A stretch of DNA of 34,772 bases from a virus: positions 1 through 34,772 of IMG/VR virus record IMGVR_UViG_3300044612_001367, one strand, 5' to 3'. Below the pieces are notes generated by a model. The model was not told where the DNA came from. It was given only the letters and a program-made list of their open reading frames with translations, and searched no databases. This document shows positions 2,906-13,494 of the stretch, piece after piece. Numbering within the stretch: position 1 is the stretch's first letter; every line of letters begins with the position of its first letter. The position numbers and the translations under genes were made by a program.

Positions 2906-3334
2906 CTAGCGGATGGGTTCCGGTTTCGCACCCGTTCGCAGTATTTCTCTCGCATCCTCCACACTGCGTACGATTCCGGCGCACCCACCAGCGGCGGCGA
3001 TGTGGTTGAGAAATGCGGTCTGCTGGGGGGTGGGCCTGCCGGTGGCCGATTTCACCTCAAGCGCCACGAACTGAGCCAGGCCGCCGACGCGGCGGTAACC
3101 AATCAGGTCGGAGCTGCCCACGCACAGGCCGGCGTGCAGGGGCCTGGCGTTGCGCACCACCACGTCGCCAGGGCGCAGGGTGTGGGCGATGGCCTGCAGA
3201 TTCCCAGCGGTGATGCGCGTGGCCTGGCCTGCCCAGCCGGTGCCGACGTTGTTCCTGAAGAGGCGGACCGGGCCTGAGCCGTGGGCCAGGAGGATCCGCT
3301 GCTGGGTGTCGTGTTCCGAGGGCATGGCTGGCAA
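2906..3334 (-). CDS. VRR-NUC domain nuclease
   Basis: A 142-residue protein. The nuclease core is visible as ...FVALEVKSATGRPTPQQ..., where E-V-K matches the catalytic E-x-K of the PD-(D/E)xK fold and D (SSDLIGYR) the upstream acidic residue. It is followed by QTAFLNHIAAAGGCAGIVRS, the typical VRR-NUC ending. Phage stand-alone VRR-NUC proteins are thought to cut branched or linear DNA in recombination. It is the first gene of the leftward operon, transcribed away from the divergent promoter region at about 3335-3430. The N-terminus (MPAMPSEHDTQQ) offers two starts; the second Met at 3325 is equally possible. Confidence 0.85.
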   Translation of the reverse strand: MPAMPSEHDTQQRILLAHGSGPVRLFRNNVGTGWAGQATRITAGNLQAIAHTLRPGDVVVRNARPLHAGLCVGSSDLIGYRRVGGLAQFVALEVKSATGRPTPQQTAFLNHIAAAGGCAGIVRSVEDAREILRTGAKPEPIR

Positions 3335-4459: not shown

Positions 4460-5086
4460 CTACGCCACCTCCCGCAACGCCTCAAACGTCATGGCCAGCA
4501 CCCACACCGGGCGGGACTGCCGCATCGCCAGGGTGATGGCTGCCTGGGATACGTGCAGCTCTCTGGCCGCGGCCACCGCACTGGGCCAGACCTGGCCGGT
4601 CTCAACGCAGCGCACGCGCCAGTCACCACGGGGCCTGGGATACCGTGCGGCGATCTGCTCAGCCAGCTCGCGATCCTCCAGCAGGGCGAACAGGCGATCG
4701 GCATCGAATCCACCGAGGGCCTGCGGGCGTTGGCTGGCCAGTCGCCGCCAGTTCTGACGGGAAACGTACCGGAACGCACCGCGCCAGACCGGCTGGAGAA
4801 TCTCCTGTGTGGTGCGCCGCCTCAGCCAGGCTTCAACCCTGGTGCACGGGCAGCCAAGGATCTCGGCCGCGCCGCCGGTGGTGACCCACTCGCCAGCACG
4901 GACTCTGGTGTGGTGGCCCATGCGAACGAGCTTCAGGTGGATGGCATTCGCTGAGCGCTCCGGCCATTTCATCTGGCCAGCCTTGCGGCGGTAGCGGTTG
5001 GCGATCTCGCGGACGGGGAACGACTCGGCCAGGGATTCGAGGAACTCGGATTCGGGGCGGGTCCAGCGTGTGTGCTGAGTGCTCAC
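4460..5086 (-). CDS. Multi-helix-turn-helix DNA-binding protein
   Basis: A 208-residue protein from a GTG start that overlaps the upstream stop (GTGA, 5083-5086); the open frame extends five codons further, but this start gives coupling. Three DNA-binding-like parts are seen. Residues 7-57 resemble a Myb/SANT-type helical domain (RWTRPESEFLESLAESF, then WPERSANAIHLKL). Residues 67-92 look like a MerR/excisionase-type HTH (WVTTGGAAEILGCPCTRVEA). Residues 167-190 resemble a NUMOD-type HTH (SAVAAARELHVSQAAITLAM). No nuclease motif is visible. It is last in the five-gene operon and could be its regulator or a DNA-targeting subunit. Confidence 0.65.
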   Translation of the reverse strand: MSTQHTRWTRPESEFLESLAESFPVREIANRYRRKAGQMKWPERSANAIHLKLVRMGHHTRVRAGEWVTTGGAAEILGCPCTRVEAWLRRRTTQEILQPVWRGAFRYVSRQNWRRLASQRPQALGGFDADRLFALLEDRELAEQIAARYPRPRGDWRVRCVETGQVWPSAVAAARELHVSQAAITLAMRQSRPVWVLAMTFEALREVA

Positions 5087-6468
5087 GCCACCTTCCTCCA
5101 CTGACCCTTCGCCTGCCGAGCGGCGATCACGTGCCGGGCCCAGCCGCGGGGGTTCTTCATGCCCCGGCGCTTCCCGATCTGGATCAGGTCTTCGACGGTC
5201 TGGGCCTGGCCCTGCTCACGCTTGGCTTCCCGCCGCTGCACTTCCACAAGGTCACCGTCCACGTGCTGCAGCTCTCGCCGCTCAGGGGTGAACTGGTGGC
5301 CGCAGTCGGGGCAGGTCTGGCGGGCGCTGGACATGGCGGCGAAGCACTGGGGGCAAACTTTCACGGAGGGGGCTTTCTCTCGGTCGCGCTTCGGTGTGCC
5401 CTCCAGCGTCCACTCCCGCTCTTCAAGGTGGTGGCCCAGCCTCACCACGTTGCCCACGTGGTCGAGGATCACCGCCTGCTTCCCGGGCTGGGGCCTCAGG
5501 CAGCGGCCGATCATCTGCAGGTGCAGGCTTACGCTCTGGGTCGGCCTCAGCAGGATGCAACCCGCCACGCTGGGCACGTCCACACCCTCGCCGATCAGTG
5601 CGCAGCTGGTGAGCACCTTTAGCCGGCCGGCGCCTAGCTCTGCAAGGAGATACTCCCGGTTCGCCGGGCCCATTCGGCCGTCGATTGATGCCGCGGCCAC
5701 GCCGTTGCGCTGGAACAGGTCGGCCACCGCTTCGGCGTGCGCGACGCTGCAGCAGAACGCGATCGCCGTCTGCCCGTCCAGATACCGCCGGTAATGCGCC
5801 AGGCAGTCGCCCATGGCCTGGCCTGCCTGCAGGGCCTGCCCGGCCTGGCTCATGTCGAAGTCGCCCATGCGCCGACGCAGCCCCGTGGTGTCGAATCCGA
5901 TCGGCGGGGCCAGCACGCGGGCCGGGGCCAGGAATCCGGCCTCGGTGAGCTCGGCGGGGGTGGGGCCCATCACCATCGCTGAGTACCACTCACCCAGGCC
6001 GCGGCCATCACAACGGATCGGCGTGGCGGTCACACCCAGCACCCGGGCGGCGCGGCAGTGCTGCAGCACCTTCGCCCAAGTGCCGGCATTGCTGTGGTGG
6101 GCCTCATCGATCACCAGCAGGTCGAAGAACTCCGGCGGGATGTGGTGCAGCCGCCTCGCCAGGGTCTGCACTGAGGCGACCTGCACCGGGCGGGATAGGT
6201 CCATGCTCCGGTTGGCAGCGATCAGCCCATGCGACACGTCGAGGGCGTCGAGGCTGGCGCTGGCCTGGCGGAGCAGCTCGGCGCGGTGGACCAGGATGCA
6301 CACCCGGTTGCCACGGGCGGCGGTCTCGCGGGTGATGTGGCTGAAGAGAACGGTCTTGCCCCCGCCAGTGGGCAGCACAAACAGCACCGAGCGGTGCCGG
6401 GCCTGGTAGGCCTCGCGGATCTCGGCGACGGCTTGGAGTTGGTAGGGGCGGAGGGTGGGGGTGGTCAT
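5083..6468 (-). CDS. SF2 DEAH helicase with C-terminal zinc ribbon
   Basis: A 461-residue protein with a complete SF2 set: Walker A PTGGGKT (33-39), DEAH (121-124), TATP (147-150), a C-terminal RecA lobe with GEGVDVPS (293-300), and motif VI QMIGRCLRP (318-326). A zinc ribbon follows with cysteines at 372, 375, 386 and 389, then a basic helical tail. This layout is that of the phage and plasmid UvsW/SSL2-like helicases that unwind branched DNA or R-loops. The start overlaps the stop of the ribbon-helix-helix gene (ATGA), and its stop overlaps the GTG of the HTH gene. It is a second SF2 helicase besides the one at the left edge. Confidence 0.88.
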   Translation of the reverse strand: MTTPTLRPYQLQAVAEIREAYQARHRSVLFVLPTGGGKTVLFSHITRETAARGNRVCILVHRAELLRQASASLDALDVSHGLIAANRSMDLSRPVQVASVQTLARRLHHIPPEFFDLLVIDEAHHSNAGTWAKVLQHCRAARVLGVTATPIRCDGRGLGEWYSAMVMGPTPAELTEAGFLAPARVLAPPIGFDTTGLRRRMGDFDMSQAGQALQAGQAMGDCLAHYRRYLDGQTAIAFCCSVAHAEAVADLFQRNGVAAASIDGRMGPANREYLLAELGAGRLKVLTSCALIGEGVDVPSVAGCILLRPTQSVSLHLQMIGRCLRPQPGKQAVILDHVGNVVRLGHHLEEREWTLEGTPKRDREKAPSVKVCPQCFAAMSSARQTCPDCGHQFTPERRELQHVDGDLVEVQRREAKREQGQAQTVEDLIQIGKRRGMKNPRGWARHVIAARQAKGQWRKVA

Positions 6469-6629
6469 GGCTCCCGCCCCGGCTCAGGCGGCAGCGCCGC
6501 CTTGATCGCCTCCCGTACAAACACCGTAATGGGCCTGTCCAGCTCCCTGCAGCGTGCATAGAGTTGATCGTAGAGATCGGGTTGCATCGTCACCGAGATC
6601 ACTCGGCGGCCGTCGGATCGGAGGGTCAT
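6465..6629 (-). CDS. Ribbon-helix-helix (CopG/Arc-type) DNA-binding protein
   Basis: A 54-residue protein. RRVISVTMQPDLYDQLYARC supplies the beta-strand and first helix, and DRPITVFVREAIKAAL the second helix, as in CopG/Arc/MetJ repressors. Such proteins dimerise and bind short inverted repeats, often autoregulating their operon. The frame is open further upstream, but the ATG at 6629 makes an ATGA overlap with the ParB-radical SAM gene. The natural target would be near the operon promoter at about 9016-9199, which contains a 14-bp palindrome. Confidence 0.75.
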   Translation of the reverse strand: MTLRSDGRRVISVTMQPDLYDQLYARCRELDRPITVFVREAIKAALPPEPGREP

Positions 6630-8095
6630 GCCGGTACCTCCTGTGGCATGTTCATTCCAGGCCACTGGCCGTCAACCGTTCCAAGCAGGTTGGTCTTGAG
6701 CCAGACCTTGCAGCCATCGCGGCGAGCAGTGGCCACCAGATCGGCCACCCACTCAAACGGCGGAGAGAATGAGCTGTTCTGGCCGATGTTCTCCGACTGA
6801 GCGCCGATCACGATCATGTCAATTCCCTCCAGCGTGGAGAACTTGATCGGCTCAAGCAGCGGCTCCAGCGACAGCCACTTCACCTTGACGCCAGAGACCT
6901 TGCGCATGGCGGCCAGTGTCGGCTCAGCGCGATGTTGCTCATCTACGGATGCCCCGATCCAGCCGCTGGCGGGGAGATTGAGTCGGTCGTAACGCTGCGG
7001 GAACTTCGTCAGGTACAGATACTCCCACTGAGGGTTGGCCACGGTGGATGCGACGACCTGATCAATCCACTCTTGCGGCACCCAAGCGCCAAACAGATCA
7101 GCCATGGAACAGACGAACACTCGGCCATGTGCCGGATCGGCGGCTGCTCGCGCAGGTACCGGCGTGTTGAGTGGTGCGTCAAGCCGCTCATGGTGGAATA
7201 GCGGCGTGAACCCTGCCGGGTAGTAGGCGGCCATGTCGCGACTGGTTGCGATGGCGCGGGCGTAGCAGTAGTCGCACCCGTGGTTGCATCCAGTGACTGG
7301 GTTCCAGCTCCACATAGCCCAGCCGATCTCGGTGCCCTTCTGCTGGTTAAAGGTGGCCTTGCCCTTGGGCTTCGGATACTCGTAGGGGTTGCCCTTGTGA
7401 TCAAGCAGCGTGATCGTCTGCTTTTCATCCAGCTTGGGAGCTTCAGGAGCTGGGCGGCTGGCGGCCATCTGCCGCTCGCGGTGCTGCGCCTCGCGGTGCG
7501 CCTTGTCGAGCGCCATGGTGCCGGCCTGCACCTGGGGCAGTAGATCAGGGGCGACCTTCGCCACGCGGGCGGCCTGTTCAACGGCGCGGGGGCTGGCGCC
7601 AACAGCCTTGGCGGCCTGGGCTGTGGTCTTGCGCTGCTCAGATGCTTGCGGCGGAGACACAGCAGGAGCAGTCGCCCGTTCGCGCAGATCTGCGCTAACG
7701 GTGACTGGCTCGCGGTTCTGTTTGAGCTCGGCGACTTGCCGCTCCCTCGCCGCCGGCTGCAGCAGCTCGCGCACCTTCAGGGCAACGATTGCCCGCTGGC
7801 CTGGGTTCAGGTGCCGCCGATGCAGGTTCGCGCTCAGGCTGAACTGGACCGGGTCGTCGCCTTCGTACGTCTCCAGCACCACCTCCTGGTTGGTGCGGTA
7901 ACAGGCCACTAGGCGATTCCTTCCGTCGAGCAGCGTGCCATCACGCCACACGATGATCGGCTGCTGCAGGCCGCGTTCTTTGATGTCTGCGCACAACTCG
8001 CGCAGCTCATCGCCTTCGACCATCGGGAACAGATCAGCGGCTGGGTGAATGCCACTGATTTCGTCGTAGTGACGCAGGATTTCAGACCAATCCAT
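6626..8095 (-). CDS. ParB-like domain fused to Gp37/Gp68-type radical SAM domain
   Basis: A 489-residue, two-part protein. Residues about 17-115 are ParB/sulfiredoxin-like: LRELCADIKERGLQQPIIVW, then LLDGRNRLVAC (57-61 = DGRNR), then NLHRRHLNPGQRA (90-102). A helical HTH-like stretch follows (161-180). From about 254 to the end it matches the phage Gp37/Gp68 (DUF5131) family: WSWNPVTGCNHGCDYCYAR, where C270, C274 and C277 form the radical SAM CxxxCxxC motif. It would bind a 4Fe-4S cluster and S-adenosylmethionine, but the reaction is unknown. The ParB part might provide DNA or nucleotide binding. The ATG at 8095 overlaps the stop of the TcmP-like gene; a GTG at 8098 is the alternative. Confidence 0.82.
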   Translation of the reverse strand: MDWSEILRHYDEISGIHPAADLFPMVEGDELRELCADIKERGLQQPIIVWRDGTLLDGRNRLVACYRTNQEVVLETYEGDDPVQFSLSANLHRRHLNPGQRAIVALKVRELLQPAARERQVAELKQNREPVTVSADLRERATAPAVSPPQASEQRKTTAQAAKAVGASPRAVEQAARVAKVAPDLLPQVQAGTMALDKAHREAQHRERQMAASRPAPEAPKLDEKQTITLLDHKGNPYEYPKPKGKATFNQQKGTEIGWAMWSWNPVTGCNHGCDYCYARAIATSRDMAAYYPAGFTPLFHHERLDAPLNTPVPARAAADPAHGRVFVCSMADLFGAWVPQEWIDQVVASTVANPQWEYLYLTKFPQRYDRLNLPASGWIGASVDEQHRAEPTLAAMRKVSGVKVKWLSLEPLLEPIKFSTLEGIDMIVIGAQSENIGQNSSFSPPFEWVADLVATARRDGCKVWLKTNLLGTVDGQWPGMNMPQEVPA

Positions 8096-9015
8096 CACAG
8101 CTCCACTCCACGGTTGAACTCTTCACGTGTCAGGAACAGGAAGCGCTGCAGCTCATAGAACGCACCGGGATCCTGTTTGCGCCACACCACCTGAGGCGGC
8201 GCCGTGATCTTTTTCTCCAATTTCCGAGCGGCTTGGATGCACTCCGCAGTGATCTCATCACGCCACTTGGCCGGGGCCGTGATCAGATACGCCCACTGAT
8301 CAGCACCACCAACGGAAAAAAGGCAGGCGTCGTGCCAGCTCTGCAGCAGCGATTCGCACAGCACCTCAACGCGCATAAACCACTCGCGCCGCTTTCCCTC
8401 ATCAATGCGCTTCAATCCGCCGACGTTGCAGCCAAGCGTCGAAAGCGAAGTGGTGAACTTTGGGCAGTTGCGGACGAACTCAGGCGTTAGGCTCCAGTCT
8501 TCGATGTGGTTGGGATCGTTGTAGATGAAGCAGGCAGCGTCTCGATTGATCAGCGGCGGCTGCAAGTCTTGGGAGTTGGCGTGTAGGTAGCGCACCTCTC
8601 CGTAGCCCTTGGCATGCACACCTCGGGACACCTCCGTCCAGTCATTGGCTGCCAGCCAGCGACCAGTGTTCTTAAGCAGCTCTGAATGAGTGATGGCCTG
8701 TTTCTCGCAACCGGTCAGCTGCACTGGCAGGCGATTGCGCTGAACAAGCCAATCCGCATGACGCAGGAAGATTCCAGGGGAACAACCATCACGAAATGCA
8801 GCCTGAGGCAGCAGCTCTGCCTGCTCGGCGGGGATGTATGGCACAGCGTCCCCGGCGGTCAGGTCGTACAGCAGCACCTCACTAACTGGAGGCATGCCGC
8901 GGCCGAGAACTCCCATTTCCCTGCCAAGCAATCGGTTCAACAGAAAGTGCTTGCATGGCGTGATACCTGATTTGCCAACTTGCGCCCCTTTTCTTTGAGG
9001 CGGTGAGCTAATCAT
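8095..9015 (-). CDS. TcmP-like (three-Cys-motif partner) protein, putative methyltransferase fold
   Basis: A 306-residue protein, first gene of the leftward operon. It shows TPCKHFLLNRLLG near the N-terminus, then VLLYDLTAGDAVP (resembling the D-x-x-A-G-x-G SAM-binding loop), CSPGIFLRHADWL, a middle block with YNDPNHIEDW (a motif IV-like D-P-N), and LSTLGCNVGGLKR. The TcmP family is defined by genomic pairing with Gp37/Gp68-type three-cysteine proteins, and this gene lies immediately upstream of one, with a 1-nt overlap. Assignment rests on the motifs plus that pairing; overall similarity to the family looks modest. Methyltransferase activity is inferred, and the substrate is unknown. Confidence 0.55.
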   Translation of the reverse strand: MISSPPQRKGAQVGKSGITPCKHFLLNRLLGREMGVLGRGMPPVSEVLLYDLTAGDAVPYIPAEQAELLPQAAFRDGCSPGIFLRHADWLVQRNRLPVQLTGCEKQAITHSELLKNTGRWLAANDWTEVSRGVHAKGYGEVRYLHANSQDLQPPLINRDAACFIYNDPNHIEDWSLTPEFVRNCPKFTTSLSTLGCNVGGLKRIDEGKRREWFMRVEVLCESLLQSWHDACLFSVGGADQWAYLITAPAKWRDEITAECIQAARKLEKKITAPPQVVWRKQDPGAFYELQRFLFLTREEFNRGVEL

Positions 9016-9386: not shown

Positions 9387-11993
9387 ATGCCTCTAGATGC
9401 AGCGGACGGCAGCTGGCCTCGGCTGCTGATGGAGCTGGGCGGCCTATCGCCTGAGCAGCTCACCGACACTCACCAGCCCTGCCCGAACTGCGGCGGTGAG
9501 GATCGCTACCGGTGGGACCAGGACGACGGGCCTGGCGGCTGGTTCTGCAATCAATGCGGCGGCAAGGACCGCATGGGTGGCGGCGGCAATGGCATGGACC
9601 TGCTGATGCGGGTCAAGGGCTGGGAGTTCAAGGACGCCTGCCGCCGGGTGGAGGAACACCTGGGCCTGCCGCAGCCGCAGGCCGCCAAGCCAAAGGCCAA
9701 GGGCCGGCCGCATCGCATCCCCGATCAGCCGCCAGCCGATGCCGCCCCGCCTGCGCTGGGCCGGGCCACCGCCCAGTGGTGCTACCGCAACGCAGCCGGT
9801 GAGCAGCTGTTCTGGGTGCAGCGCATCCCTCAGCCCGACGGCAAGCTGTTCGTGCACCGGACCTGGCTGGACGGTGGCTGGCACTACCCCAGCAAGCGCG
9901 ACCCGTTCAAGTCCGAATGGCCCACACCCCGGCCGCTCTACCGCCTGCCGGATCTGACGGATAGACCCGATGCCCCGGTACTGATCACCGAGGGCGAGAA
10001 GGCCGCCGACGCTGCAGCTGAGCTGTTCCCTGATCACGCATGCCTGGCCTGGTGCGGCGGCACCGGTGGGGTCAACACCGTGGACTGGCAGGCCCTCGCC
10101 GGCCGCAACGTGACGCTCTGGCCCGATGCCGATGAGCCCGGCCGAGCGTGCATGGCGAAGGTCGCCGCCAAGCTGCTGCCCGTCGCCGCATCGGTGGCCA
10201 TCGTTGCCCCGCCGGAATCTGCGCCCGAAGGCTGGGACCTGGCCGATGCCACCGACTGGACCCAGCGCCAGGCCATCAACGCCCTGCGGAAGTTCGCCAA
10301 GGCTGTGGAGGCGACGGTTGTGCCTGAACCTCCCGCACCCACACCCCCAGCACCAACACCCGCGCCCCCGGCCGACCTCCCGACATCCCGCCCGTTCCTC
10401 TGCCTGGGATTCGACGAAGGCGTCTTCTACTACCAGCCCCGCAGCACCGGCCAGGTGGTGGCCATCGCCCGCGGCAGCCACACCGGCACCAACCTGGTGC
10501 AGCTCGCTGAGCTGTCCTACTGGGAGGCGCTCTACCCGTCGAAGACCGGCGTGAACTGGCTGGCCGCGGCATCCTCGCTGTTCGCCGAGCAGGCCCGGGT
10601 GGGAATCTTCAGCCCAGACCGGATTCGTGGCCGCGGCGCCTGGTGGGACGCTGGCAGGTCGGTCCTGCACCTGGGGGACCGCCTGCTGATCGATGGCACT
10701 CAGCACCCGATCACCAAGGCCCCCAGCTCACGTTTCCACTACCAGCGCCTGGCATCGATCGACCTGCCTGAGCACCTGCAGCCGCTCAACGATGAGCTGG
10801 GCATGGAGCTGATCGACATCGCCTCGCGCTTCCACTGGGAGGTGCCGGCATCGGGCCTGCTGCTGGCGGGATGGATCGCGCTGGCTCCGATCTGCGGCGC
10901 CCTCCAGTGGCGCCCGCACATCTGGCTGACCGCATCGGCTGGCTCGGGCAAGTCGGCCATCCTCGATCGCCTCATTGGCCCGCTGATCGAATCGCTGGCG
11001 CTGTTCCCGGAAGGCAACACTACCGAGGCATTCATTCGCCAGCAGCTCCGCTCCGATGCCGTCCCCGTCGTGTTCGATGAGGCCGAATCCAATGAGAAGG
11101 CCGACCGCCAGCGGATTCAGAACATCCTCTCGCTGGCCCGGGTGAGCTCCAGTTCAGGCCGCGGCGTGATCGGTAAGGGTGGCGCCGATGGCACCGCGCA
11201 GAGCTTCACCATCCGATCCATGTTCCTGCTGTGCTCGATTTCCACAGCCTTGAAACAGGGTGCTGATCAGTCGCGGTTCGCTCAGCTCACCCTGCGCAAC
11301 CCGTCATTCATGCCCAAGCCTGAGCGCCTGGCGCACTGGTCGGCGCTCGACGCGGACATCACCAGGGTCTGCACCGTGGAGCTTGGCCAGCGGATGATGC
11401 TCCGCATGGTGCAGCAGATCCCGATCATCCGGGATTCGGTCGCCGTGTTCCGCAGGGCCGCGGCCGAGCGCTTCGACTCCCAGCGCCAGGGTGATCAGTA
11501 CGGCACCCTGCTGGCCGGCGCCTGGTCGCTGATGAACTCCAAGCCCGCCACCATCGAAGACGCCTATTACCTCATCGATGCCAACAACTGGGACGCCTAC
11601 AAGGAGCAGTCCGAGGCCGATGAGGAACGCTGCCTGCAGCACATCCTGCAGCACCAGATCAGGGTGGAGGGCGATCGCGGCACCGGCTACAACCGGACCA
11701 TCTGGGAGCTGGTCGAGCTCGCTCGCGGCAGCGCCGCATCGATGGAGATCGGGCCCGGCGCTGCTGAGTCGCACCTGGGCCGCATCGGCGTGAAGGTCGA
11801 GGGCGAGCGGCTGGTGATCAGCAACACGGCCAAGGCGCTGCGGCGCATCCTCGACGGCACGCCATGGATGGACTGTTACGCCACCGTGCTCACCAGGCTG
11901 CCTGGCGCGAAGAAAGCCGGCGTCGTGCGGTTCAAGGGCATGGCTGGTGTCAGTAGGGCCGTTTCATTGGCCATTCCAGGCTCCGAGGCGTAA
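9387..11993 (+). CDS. Primase-helicase (zinc ribbon, TOPRIM, DUF927-like ATPase)
   Basis: An 868-residue multidomain replication protein. A zinc ribbon at the N-terminus has C32, C35, C54 and C57 (PCPNCGG ... WFCNQCGG), as in phage P4/T7-type primases. A TOPRIM-like domain follows, with LITEGEKAADAA (E202) and LWPDADEPG (245-252). After a Pro/Ala-rich linker (313-329) the C-terminal half resembles DUF927 ATPases: Walker A TASAGSGKS (515-523) and Walker B VVFDEAES (561-568). It would make primers and unwind DNA at the phage origin. Repeats typical of an origin start at its stop codon and continue downstream, as expected if it recognises its own origin like the P4 alpha protein. Confidence 0.88.
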   Translation: MPLDAADGSWPRLLMELGGLSPEQLTDTHQPCPNCGGEDRYRWDQDDGPGGWFCNQCGGKDRMGGGGNGMDLLMRVKGWEFKDACRRVEEHLGLPQPQAAKPKAKGRPHRIPDQPPADAAPPALGRATAQWCYRNAAGEQLFWVQRIPQPDGKLFVHRTWLDGGWHYPSKRDPFKSEWPTPRPLYRLPDLTDRPDAPVLITEGEKAADAAAELFPDHACLAWCGGTGGVNTVDWQALAGRNVTLWPDADEPGRACMAKVAAKLLPVAASVAIVAPPESAPEGWDLADATDWTQRQAINALRKFAKAVEATVVPEPPAPTPPAPTPAPPADLPTSRPFLCLGFDEGVFYYQPRSTGQVVAIARGSHTGTNLVQLAELSYWEALYPSKTGVNWLAAASSLFAEQARVGIFSPDRIRGRGAWWDAGRSVLHLGDRLLIDGTQHPITKAPSSRFHYQRLASIDLPEHLQPLNDELGMELIDIASRFHWEVPASGLLLAGWIALAPICGALQWRPHIWLTASAGSGKSAILDRLIGPLIESLALFPEGNTTEAFIRQQLRSDAVPVVFDEAESNEKADRQRIQNILSLARVSSSSGRGVIGKGGADGTAQSFTIRSMFLLCSISTALKQGADQSRFAQLTLRNPSFMPKPERLAHWSALDADITRVCTVELGQRMMLRMVQQIPIIRDSVAVFRRAAAERFDSQRQGDQYGTLLAGAWSLMNSKPATIEDAYYLIDANNWDAYKEQSEADEERCLQHILQHQIRVEGDRGTGYNRTIWELVELARGSAASMEIGPGAAESHLGRIGVKVEGERLVISNTAKALRRILDGTPWMDCYATVLTRLPGAKKAGVVRFKGMAGVSRAVSLAIPGSEA

Positions 11994-12376: not shown

Positions 12377-12592
12377 ATGAAACGCGCCACCAGCCTGAGC
12401 CTGCTCCTCAGTCGCGAGACGCCCTGGCTCAGGTGGTGGCAGGAGCTCATCCTGAACTGGGTGGCGAGCTGGAGCACCGTGGGCGACCTGACCGTCTCAT
12501 CGGCCGATGGTGAGGACTACACGGCGTGGGAGCTGCCGACCGACCTGGATCTGAAGCGGCTGGAGCTGGAGGAGCTGCTGGAATCTCAATAG
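12377..12592 (+). CDS. Small protein, unknown function
   Basis: A 71-residue protein starting MKRATSLSLLLSRETPWLRW and ending with an acidic, leucine-rich helix (DLKRLELEELLESQ). An upstream extension of the frame to 12299 would translate through a terminator hairpin, so the ATG at 12377 is preferred. A weakly hydrophobic, Trp-rich middle (LRWWQELILNWVASW) could be amphipathic. It lies 20 nt before the structural gene at 12613. Its Trp-rich stretch and acidic end are the only distinctive marks, and no family was recognised. Confidence 0.55.
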   Translation: MKRATSLSLLLSRETPWLRWWQELILNWVASWSTVGDLTVSSADGEDYTAWELPTDLDLKRLELEELLESQ

Positions 12593-12612
12593 GCCCCCGA
12601 CAGACTGGGGGC
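12593..12612 (+). promoter_or_regulatory. Hairpin abutting the start codon of the next gene
   Basis: GCCCCC (12593-12598) pairs with GGGGGC (12607-12612). The stem begins right after the TAG at 12590-12592 and ends one base before the ATG at 12613. It would occupy the ribosome-binding region of the 12613 gene and could limit its translation unless it is opened by ribosomes from upstream. Confidence 0.45.
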
Positions 12613-13494
12613 ATGGCTGGCGTCGTCTTCACTGTTGACACATCCGAGCTGAATCAGCTCCACGTCCAGCTGAGCCGGATGATGGGCCAGTTCGAGTGGA
12701 TCACCGCTCGGGCCATGACAACGGCCGCCAAGGCCTCCCGTGAGGCCATCAGGCGCGAGATCCTGCCGATGGTGAAGGGCGGCGCCACGGCCTGGACCAG
12801 GAAGGGCCTCATTGTTTCCTTCGCCAAGCCTGATCAGCTGCGGGCCATGGCTGGCTTTCAGTACGGCGGCGGTGAGTGGAGCGACACAGCCCTCACCCGC
12901 AAGGCCGGCGGCGTGCCTGCTGGCCGCTACATGGGCATCAACGCCAGCGGCGGTGATCGCAGGCCCAAGGGATTCGAGCTGCAGCTGAGACGGGCCGGGC
13001 AGATCGGCAGGGGGGATTTCGTGGTGCCCCGCTCCAGATGGGGCGCGCTGAATGCCCAGGGGAATGTCTCGGGTGGCAAGTACCAGCAGATCCTGTCCCG
13101 GGTTCGTGCGCTGCCAAGCGGGATTGGGAATGCCCCGCGGGGGGCTGGGAGTCGCGGGAGGTCGGGCAGGGCCAGGGCCAGCCTCGACTACTTCGTGGCC
13201 CGCGGGGATGACTCAGGCATCAGCCGCTGGCAGCCCGGCTCACGCCCGCTGATGATCGCGGAACGTGCGGGCAAGGGGCCGAAGGGTGGCACCGGCAAAG
13301 GTTCAGGCAAGCGCGGCAGACCGCAGACCGTTGGCTATCGCCGTGGCTTTGTGCCTGCGATGAGCATCGTCAACGATGCGCCGAACTACGAACGACGTTT
13401 CCCGATCCAATCTGTTGCGATGCGTGAGTATCGACGCGTCTTCCCCACCGCCTGGCGAGACGGATTCATTCGCGAAGCAAACCGCAGACGGTGA
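12613..13494 (+). CDS. Putative virion protein, possibly minor tail protein Z (gpZ)-like
   Basis: A 293-residue basic protein. It starts MAGVVFTVDTSELNQLHVQL and continues with a helical WITARAMTTAAKASREAIRR and a strand-rich middle (GLIVSFAKPDQLRAMAGF), then a Gly/Arg-rich loop (about 205-260) and a conserved-looking end (RREYRRVFPTAWRDGFIREA is approximate). The 'V-D-x-S-E-L ... A-L-N' style start and the Arg-rich helix recall prophage minor tail protein Z, which completes the head-proximal tail end. In lambda Z lies between FII and U; here the gene precedes terminase and no other Z-like gene was found. An upstream in-frame ATG exists at 12526 but overlaps the previous gene. Family assignment is tentative. 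Confidence 0.4.
   Translation: MAGVVFTVDTSELNQLHVQLSRMMGQFEWITARAMTTAAKASREAIRREILPMVKGGATAWTRKGLIVSFAKPDQLRAMAGFQYGGGEWSDTALTRKAGGVPAGRYMGINASGGDRRPKGFELQLRRAGQIGRGDFVVPRSRWGALNAQGNVSGGKYQQILSRVRALPSGIGNAPRGAGSRGRSGRARASLDYFVARGDDSGISRWQPGSRPLMIAERAGKGPKGGTGKGSGKRGRPQTVGYRRGFVPAMSIVNDAPNYERRFPIQSVAMREYRRVFPTAWRDGFIREANRRR

Follow-up and report, generated by a model that had tools for sequence, protein, structure and literature searches.

Two overlapping genes, encoding P0002 and P0001, lie on the minus strand of the 34,772-base virus record IMGVR_UViG_3300044612_001367 (called the window here, meaning the whole stretch of DNA analysed). P0001 joins a ParB-like N-terminus to a DUF5131 (Gp37/Gp68) domain with a predicted radical S-adenosylmethionine (SAM) fold, and P0002 has a predicted methyltransferase fold. 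At the DNA level the terminase gene of the window is ~74% identical to its counterparts in Synechococcus phages S-CBS1 and S-CBS3, and the virus is related to cyanobacterial phages. Both open reading frames (ORFs) were found on the minus strand at the positions reported by an earlier reading of the window made from sequence alone (the sequence-only reading). The features of the pair are as follows.

8095..9015, minus strand: P0002, 306 amino acids; divergent TcmP-like protein with an RlmJ-like class I methyltransferase fold
6626..8098, minus strand: P0001; ParB_N, helical helix-turn-helix (HTH)-like region and DUF5131 radical SAM domain
7808..8071, minus strand: ParB_N-like domain of P0001, residues 10-97; from fold match, alignment and column counts
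7457..7804, minus strand: helical region of P0001, residues 99-214; from the model and alignment with pNOB8 ParB-N
6692..7330, minus strand: DUF5131 domain of P0001, residues 257-469; PF07505 match, radical SAM fold like that of spore photoproduct lyase (SPL) in the model
7265..7288, minus strand: cluster motif C271-x3-C275-x2-C278 of P0001; invariant in the alignment

The two genes overlap as TGATG at the head of a leftward gene run. P0001 has 490 amino acids from the listed GTG at 8098 and 489 from the ATG at 8095; the ATG fits better and is the more likely start, since GGAG lies ~5 nt upstream. Residue numbers of P0001 follow the GTG start, which places the cluster cysteines at 271/275/278. 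Counted from the ATG they are 270/274/277, the numbering used correctly in the sequence-only reading.

The radical SAM domain of P0001 is closest in predicted fold to SPL

A Pfam scan matched residues 256-468 of P0001 to PF07505 (DUF5131; E 3.4e-35, 122.2 bits against a cut-off of 28.9). K365, E412 and P413 are invariant among aligned relatives, as is the CxxxCxxC motif of the domain (41/41, with identity down to ~32%). The radical SAM family PF04055 did not reach its cut-off (18.4 against 29.5 bits), and by sequence P0001 would be at best a divergent member of the radical SAM superfamily.

The predicted structure is more informative. The AlphaFold model of P0001 has a pLDDT of 89.6 overall and a pTM of 0.60, too low for the relative placement of its domains to be reliable. 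Residues 233-469 match six SPL entries (Z 13.5-14.4, 216-222 residues aligned, 3.4-4.1 Å), of which 4fhf is the best (Z 14.4, 216 aligned). The next family is RlmN (Z 11.1), with lipoyl synthase and viperin also about three units under SPL; NifB is matched as well. The CxxxCxxC motif sits in a partial TIM barrel, the arrangement that we took to identify a radical SAM fold. The sequence-only reading had named loss of the three cysteines, or a predicted structure without a SAM or cluster site, as grounds for abandoning it, and neither occurred.

Comparison of a profile of 29 DUF5131 domains with one of 15 SPLs gave E 1e-4 and a probability of 55, with the cluster motif and a T-K-F block aligned. 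P0001 nevertheless lies under sequence-level detection by the SPL family PF20903, which is absent from its Pfam hits up to E 1, and a sequence search with the DUF5131 domain alone against solved structures found no radical SAM entry. P0001 also differs from SPL in its ParB fusion and its methyltransferase-like partner. On the model, the radical domain is closest to SPL, an enzyme that acts on thymine in DNA (PMC3742179).

As in SPL, a cysteine follows strand 2. This residue, C330 (in VCSMAD), falls in the stretch that corresponds to the SPL hydrogen-donor cysteine (C141 in B. subtilis) and is Cys in 30 of the 41 aligned rows. We considered equating the two but do not make this claim, as the profile alignment sets the SPL cysteine opposite S331, one residue away, and does not fix its site in P0001.

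The N-terminus of P0001 is ParB-like and lacks both hydrolytic glutamates

The N-terminal 215 residues of P0001 are ParB-like by TIGR00180 (E 2e-7), phrog_4715 (E 1e-11), phrog_12047 (E 5e-10) and phage ParB annotations, with Pfam ParB_N itself below cut-off. Against solved structures, the P0001 profile matched ParB/Noc chains at E 5e-9; the whole-protein profile returned only ParB/Noc/KorB and chance matches. In the model, residues 10-94 superpose on M. xanthus ParB 7o0n (Z 10.8, 83 aligned, 2.0 Å) and residues 9-215 align with pNOB8 ParB-N (Z 10.2). Residues 99-214 form helices comparable to the HTH/linker part of ParB, with 134-145 disordered. These results, together with the PF07505 match, bear out the proposed fusion of a ParB domain to a Gp37/Gp68 domain. 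They also agree with the suggestion that P0001 couples a possible DNA- or nucleotide-binding ParB-HTH part to a radical SAM fold, the ParB part sharing its fold and motifs with ParB CTPases.

P0001 has DGRNR at the position of the ParB GERR box and S-A-N-L-H-R-R-H-L at that of ENLQR. The glycine and arginine of GERR are kept (Gly59 and Arg62); among aligned relatives that have a residue there, the cytidine triphosphate (CTP)-binding Gly is present in 31/31 rows and the Arg in 30/30. In B. subtilis ParB, Glu78 (GERR) and Glu111 (ENLQR) are required for CTP hydrolysis, and G77S and R80A impair CTP binding (PMC8494293). Glu never occurs at either equivalent position in the aligned relatives. P0001 thus differs from ParB CTPases both in this loss and in its fusion to an enzyme domain, and resembles PadC, which is also without the two glutamates and binds CTP but does not hydrolyse it (PMC8494293). 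Retention of Gly and Arg with absence of both glutamates predicts nucleotide binding without turnover, so that the ParB domain of P0001 probably binds CTP or another nucleotide and does not hydrolyse it. No ParA partner was seen among the window genes scanned.

It should also be noted that three close DUF5131 relatives (L014:5683-6906, L016:5344-6825 and L017:5992-6831) have an N-terminus that is short or gives no ParB score, so that the DNA-binding part seems exchangeable.

P0002 is a remote TcmP homologue with an RlmJ-like fold

The sequence-only reading had called the partner TcmP-like. This is not apparent from direct family scans, in which P0002 matched nothing in Pfam, PHROGs, NCBIfam or PADLOC, including TIGR04474 (TcmP; cut-off 53 bits), and in which no member of its 23-protein family scored above noise. 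P0002 likewise had no match in 50,697 phage records, and no cultured phage with a P0002 variant was found there. Compared directly by profile, the P0002 family and canonical TcmP gave a weak match (P 14), so we used a two-step chain. The P0002 family matches TcmPs that adjoin ParB-DUF5131 genes (E 9e-11, P 97), and these in turn match canonical TcmP (E 9e-12). This chain and gene order together indicate that P0002 is remotely homologous to TcmP, with a score too low for membership of that family, so the likeness holds at the level of profiles while P0002 stays below every family cut-off and forms a family of its own.

The AlphaFold model of P0002 (pLDDT 84.9, pTM 0.86) matches RlmJ, the 23S rRNA A2030-N6 methyltransferase (6qe0, 4blv; PF04378), over nearly its full length (residues 10-283; Z 15-17, 217-224 aligned), with Trm1 next at 12.2. 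The two share an N-terminal K-H element, a D-x-x-A-G loop and a GSP-like block that is in TcmP too. Identity is only 12-13%, P0002 has no PF04378 hit and direct profile comparison of its family with RlmJ gave nothing; the link therefore comes from the fold and by way of canonical TcmP, which aligns with RlmJ in sequence (profile comparison, E 3e-6, probability 88) and so supports a common origin.

P0002 combines a Rossmann-type fold, the Gly-rich loop of motif I and the acid of motif II, as class I methyltransferases do. Motif I, D51-L-T-A-G-D56, follows the first strand, so the D-x-x-A-G-D loop noticed from sequence is genuine, and it is invariant or nearly so; D51, A54 and G55 are invariant, as is the motif II acid E104. 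Motif IV (N166-D-P-N169) and the STxGCN and QWAYL blocks are also conserved. The DPPY catalytic motif of RlmJ is replaced in P0002 by N-D-P-N.

The two genes are constantly paired and under purifying selection

A profile of P0002 alone retrieved 23 viral loci, and a DUF5131 gene lies downstream in 23/23 (the L060 copy seems to be divided by a frameshift). On the Actinomadura contig concerned (L060:3625-6601 and L064:2430-5406, the same contig), the ParB-DUF5131 gene is seemingly in two frames and the P0002 homologue is intact. Dozens of viral contigs, and some bacterial genomes too, carry the ParB-DUF5131 fusion itself. At more distant ParB-DUF5131 loci, TcmP-matching proteins occupy the place of P0002, and those of L024 and L025 score above the TIGR04474 cut-off. 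At two Deltaproteobacteria/Syntrophales loci (L065:3119-3961 and L066:3092-3961), the gene upstream of ParB-DUF5131 does not align as TcmP.

Both genes are under strong purifying selection (dN/dS, the ratio of nonsynonymous to synonymous substitution rates, against close relatives: 0.06-0.12 for P0001 and 0.05-0.10 for P0002). Among sister contigs the DUF5131 domain is 84-96% identical, and P0002 is only 44-56% identical in four of them (L003:517-1344, L004:896-1717, L009:2938-3831 and L010:4708-5559; adjoining DUF5131 84-90% identical). P0002 varies most in the stretch separating motifs I and IV (residues 76-150) and is conserved in parts of its C-terminal half. A constant radical core with a fast-changing P0002 would be expected of a partner that sets specificity, but recombinational gene replacement would look identical.

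The pair is a variant of a widespread family

The pair had been put forward as a candidate for an undescribed system. In the strong sense this does not hold: NCBIfam already has a name for the TcmP/DUF5131 pair (TIGR04474), PADLOC lists it as candidate defence systems PDC-M30/M41, and the ParB fusion recurs. P0001 matches the B component (DUF5131) of PDC-M41/M30 at 2e-32 and 1e-31, while the A component (TcmP) is unmatched by P0002. The window pair belongs, as a variant, to a widespread and uncharacterised family and does not form a new category. It shares with canonical DUF5131 (Gp37/Gp68; PF07505, phrog_2045) and TcmP the radical SAM-type domain with CxxxCxxC and the two-gene arrangement, and it differs in its N-terminal ParB-HTH fusion, its setting in a phage replication operon and C330, which is Asn in canonical DUF5131. 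In the literature searched we found no experiment on a TcmP/DUF5131 pair, no paper on DUF5131 and none on TcmP function.

Canonical pairs without ParB, in convergent order, occur in phage Ssp-JY39 and Gordonia phage Fairfaxidum. In the latter (L174:3480-5421), DUF5131 gp42 and TcmP gp43 lie between a serine integrase and the immunity repressor, a position that favours a role in the lysogen there. The Fairfaxidum TcmP has a GSPGI block resembling the CSPGI block of P0002. Around canonical bacterial pairs there was no consistent third component; the sole recurrent Pfam domain, GMT-wHTH, probably belongs to the TcmPs themselves. Hits to 'folate receptor' and 'Zorya' were dismissed as chance.

The pair lies in a replication operon

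The pair shares its strand with the following genes of the window, and a divergent primase gene adjoins it.

6465..6665, minus strand: small ribbon-helix-helix (RHH)-like ORF, the next operon gene, overlapping the 3' end of P0001; PF01402 E 8e-4, just below cut-off
5083..6468, minus strand: DNA helicase (ResIII/Helicase_C, phrog_16), same leftward operon
2906-3334, same strand as the pair: VRR-nuclease/Holliday-resolvase-like ORF
2033-2878, same strand as the pair: RecT
1570-2013, same strand as the pair: SSB
9387-11993, start at 9387, divergent from P0002/P0001: primase gene

A search for consensus promoters and terminators found none above chance, and no lysogeny gene was seen among the window genes scanned. 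Phage S-CBS3, whose terminase is related, has a comparable leftward operon with a homologous helicase (gp40, L166:26317-28581). There the helicase is fused to an N6_N4 DNA methylase, whereas the window helicase has no methylase domain and stands beside the ParB-DUF5131/TcmP pair. This single comparison is consistent with one DNA-modifying module replacing another.

A minor-tail-like gene (phrog_1924, 12526-13494) lies between the primase gene and the terminase. In S-CBS1 and S-CBS3, an ORF annotated as a minor tail protein likewise adjoins replication genes.

Proposed role and alternatives

That the two proteins act jointly on DNA, RNA or a nucleotide, as the sequence-only reading had supposed, is the most economical interpretation, and the pair probably alters DNA bases. 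We propose, tentatively, that a ParB-type DNA tether, gated by nucleotide, brings the radical SAM enzyme and its partner with the methyltransferase fold to bases in DNA, and that this probably protects the DNA of the phage. The module would chemically modify nucleic acid, most likely the bases of the phage's own DNA. P0001 would be an SPL-type radical SAM enzyme carried on a ParB-like domain, and nucleotide bound without hydrolysis would make it a lasting DNA clamp or tether instead of a cycling one. P0002, a SAM-dependent methyltransferase-fold protein of the RlmJ/TcmP type, would act in a complex with it, probably selecting the base and methylating or otherwise preparing it, after which the 5'-deoxyadenosyl radical of P0001 would act on the prepared base or on the methyl group. 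Probably expressed early as part of the replication operon, the module would shield phage DNA from host restriction. The proposal draws on the domains and predicted folds, the invariant cluster motif, the constant pairing, the low dN/dS, the missing hydrolytic glutamates of the ParB domain and the setting among replication genes; from these we infer the complex, the DNA substrate, the sequence of reactions, nucleotide binding, early expression and protection.

Several observations weigh against this proposal. P0002 has DPN in place of the DPPY of adenine-N6 methyltransferases, which makes methyl transfer itself uncertain, and the placement of the P0001 domains relative to each other is unreliable in the model. 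RlmJ, the best fold neighbour of P0002, and RlmN, the second for the radical domain, are RNA-acting. Furthermore, many bacterial DUF5131/TcmP pairs have no ParB part, which means that the basic reaction does not require tethering to DNA. An extended version, in which the nucleotide-locked clamp moves both enzymes along the DNA of the phage and bases are modified there by methyl-radical chemistry not so far known in DNA, with the same core reaction in bacterial TcmP/DUF5131 pairs, seems to us unlikely.

Defence is a rather unlikely alternative. Carried by both phages and bacteria, the pair would protect the infected or lysogenic cell from competing phages, either in the manner of restriction or through a toxic nucleotide, and its ParB part would serve as sensor or effector. 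The PADLOC candidacy of canonical pairs fits, as do the location of Fairfaxidum gp42/gp43, the far greater variation of P0002 than of the radical SAM domain among sister phages, and the proposal that ParB-family proteins are antiviral nucleotide-degrading effectors (PMC10853773). PDC-M30 was predicted in 32/100 P. aeruginosa strains, 68.8% of which were phage-resistant (PMC10855318). However, the PADLOC listing is by association only, few other defence genes lie near canonical bacterial pairs, no nuclease or toxin gene is consistently beside the pair, and in the window the pair belongs to a replication operon with no lysogeny gene seen among the genes scanned. RNA modification we regard as quite unlikely; here P0002 would be an RNA methyltransferase like RlmJ, and DUF5131 a radical modifier like RlmN, acting on host or phage rRNA, tRNA or mRNA. 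The fold matches of P0002, to an rRNA methyltransferase and then to the tRNA methyltransferase Trm1, speak for it together with the second place of RlmN, but SPL is clearly above RlmN, P0002 is without DPPY, and the ParB-HTH fusion and replication-operon context point to DNA.

The nearness of the radical domain to SPL, the location of C330 in the segment of the hydrogen-donor cysteine and the Synechococcus hosts of the terminase relatives would also suit an SPL-type repair enzyme that the ParB clamp loads onto the DNA of a sunlit cyanobacterial virus to reverse damage by ultraviolet light or alkylation. We consider this improbable: SPL repair has no role for a methyltransferase-like partner, canonical DUF5131 has Asn where P0001 has C330, the SPL cysteine aligns opposite S331, and the family is often carried by gut and soil bacteria and their phages, which have no obvious exposure to ultraviolet light. 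Synthesis of a viperin-like modified free nucleotide, with the ParB part binding nucleotide, is highly improbable. Viperins are among the fold matches of P0001 (Z ~10-10.8) and there is a weak PADLOC pVip match (E 0.05), but viperin stands three to four Z units under SPL, and the HTH and ParB parts suggest polynucleotide binding.

TcmP/DUF5131 pairs span bacteria, archaea and phages and have no known reaction. The links to SPL, to RlmJ and to a CTP clamp without hydrolysis make that function accessible to direct experiment. If the proposal is true, the pair would modify DNA by radical chemistry, or serve in defence, as a module that brings its own clamp.

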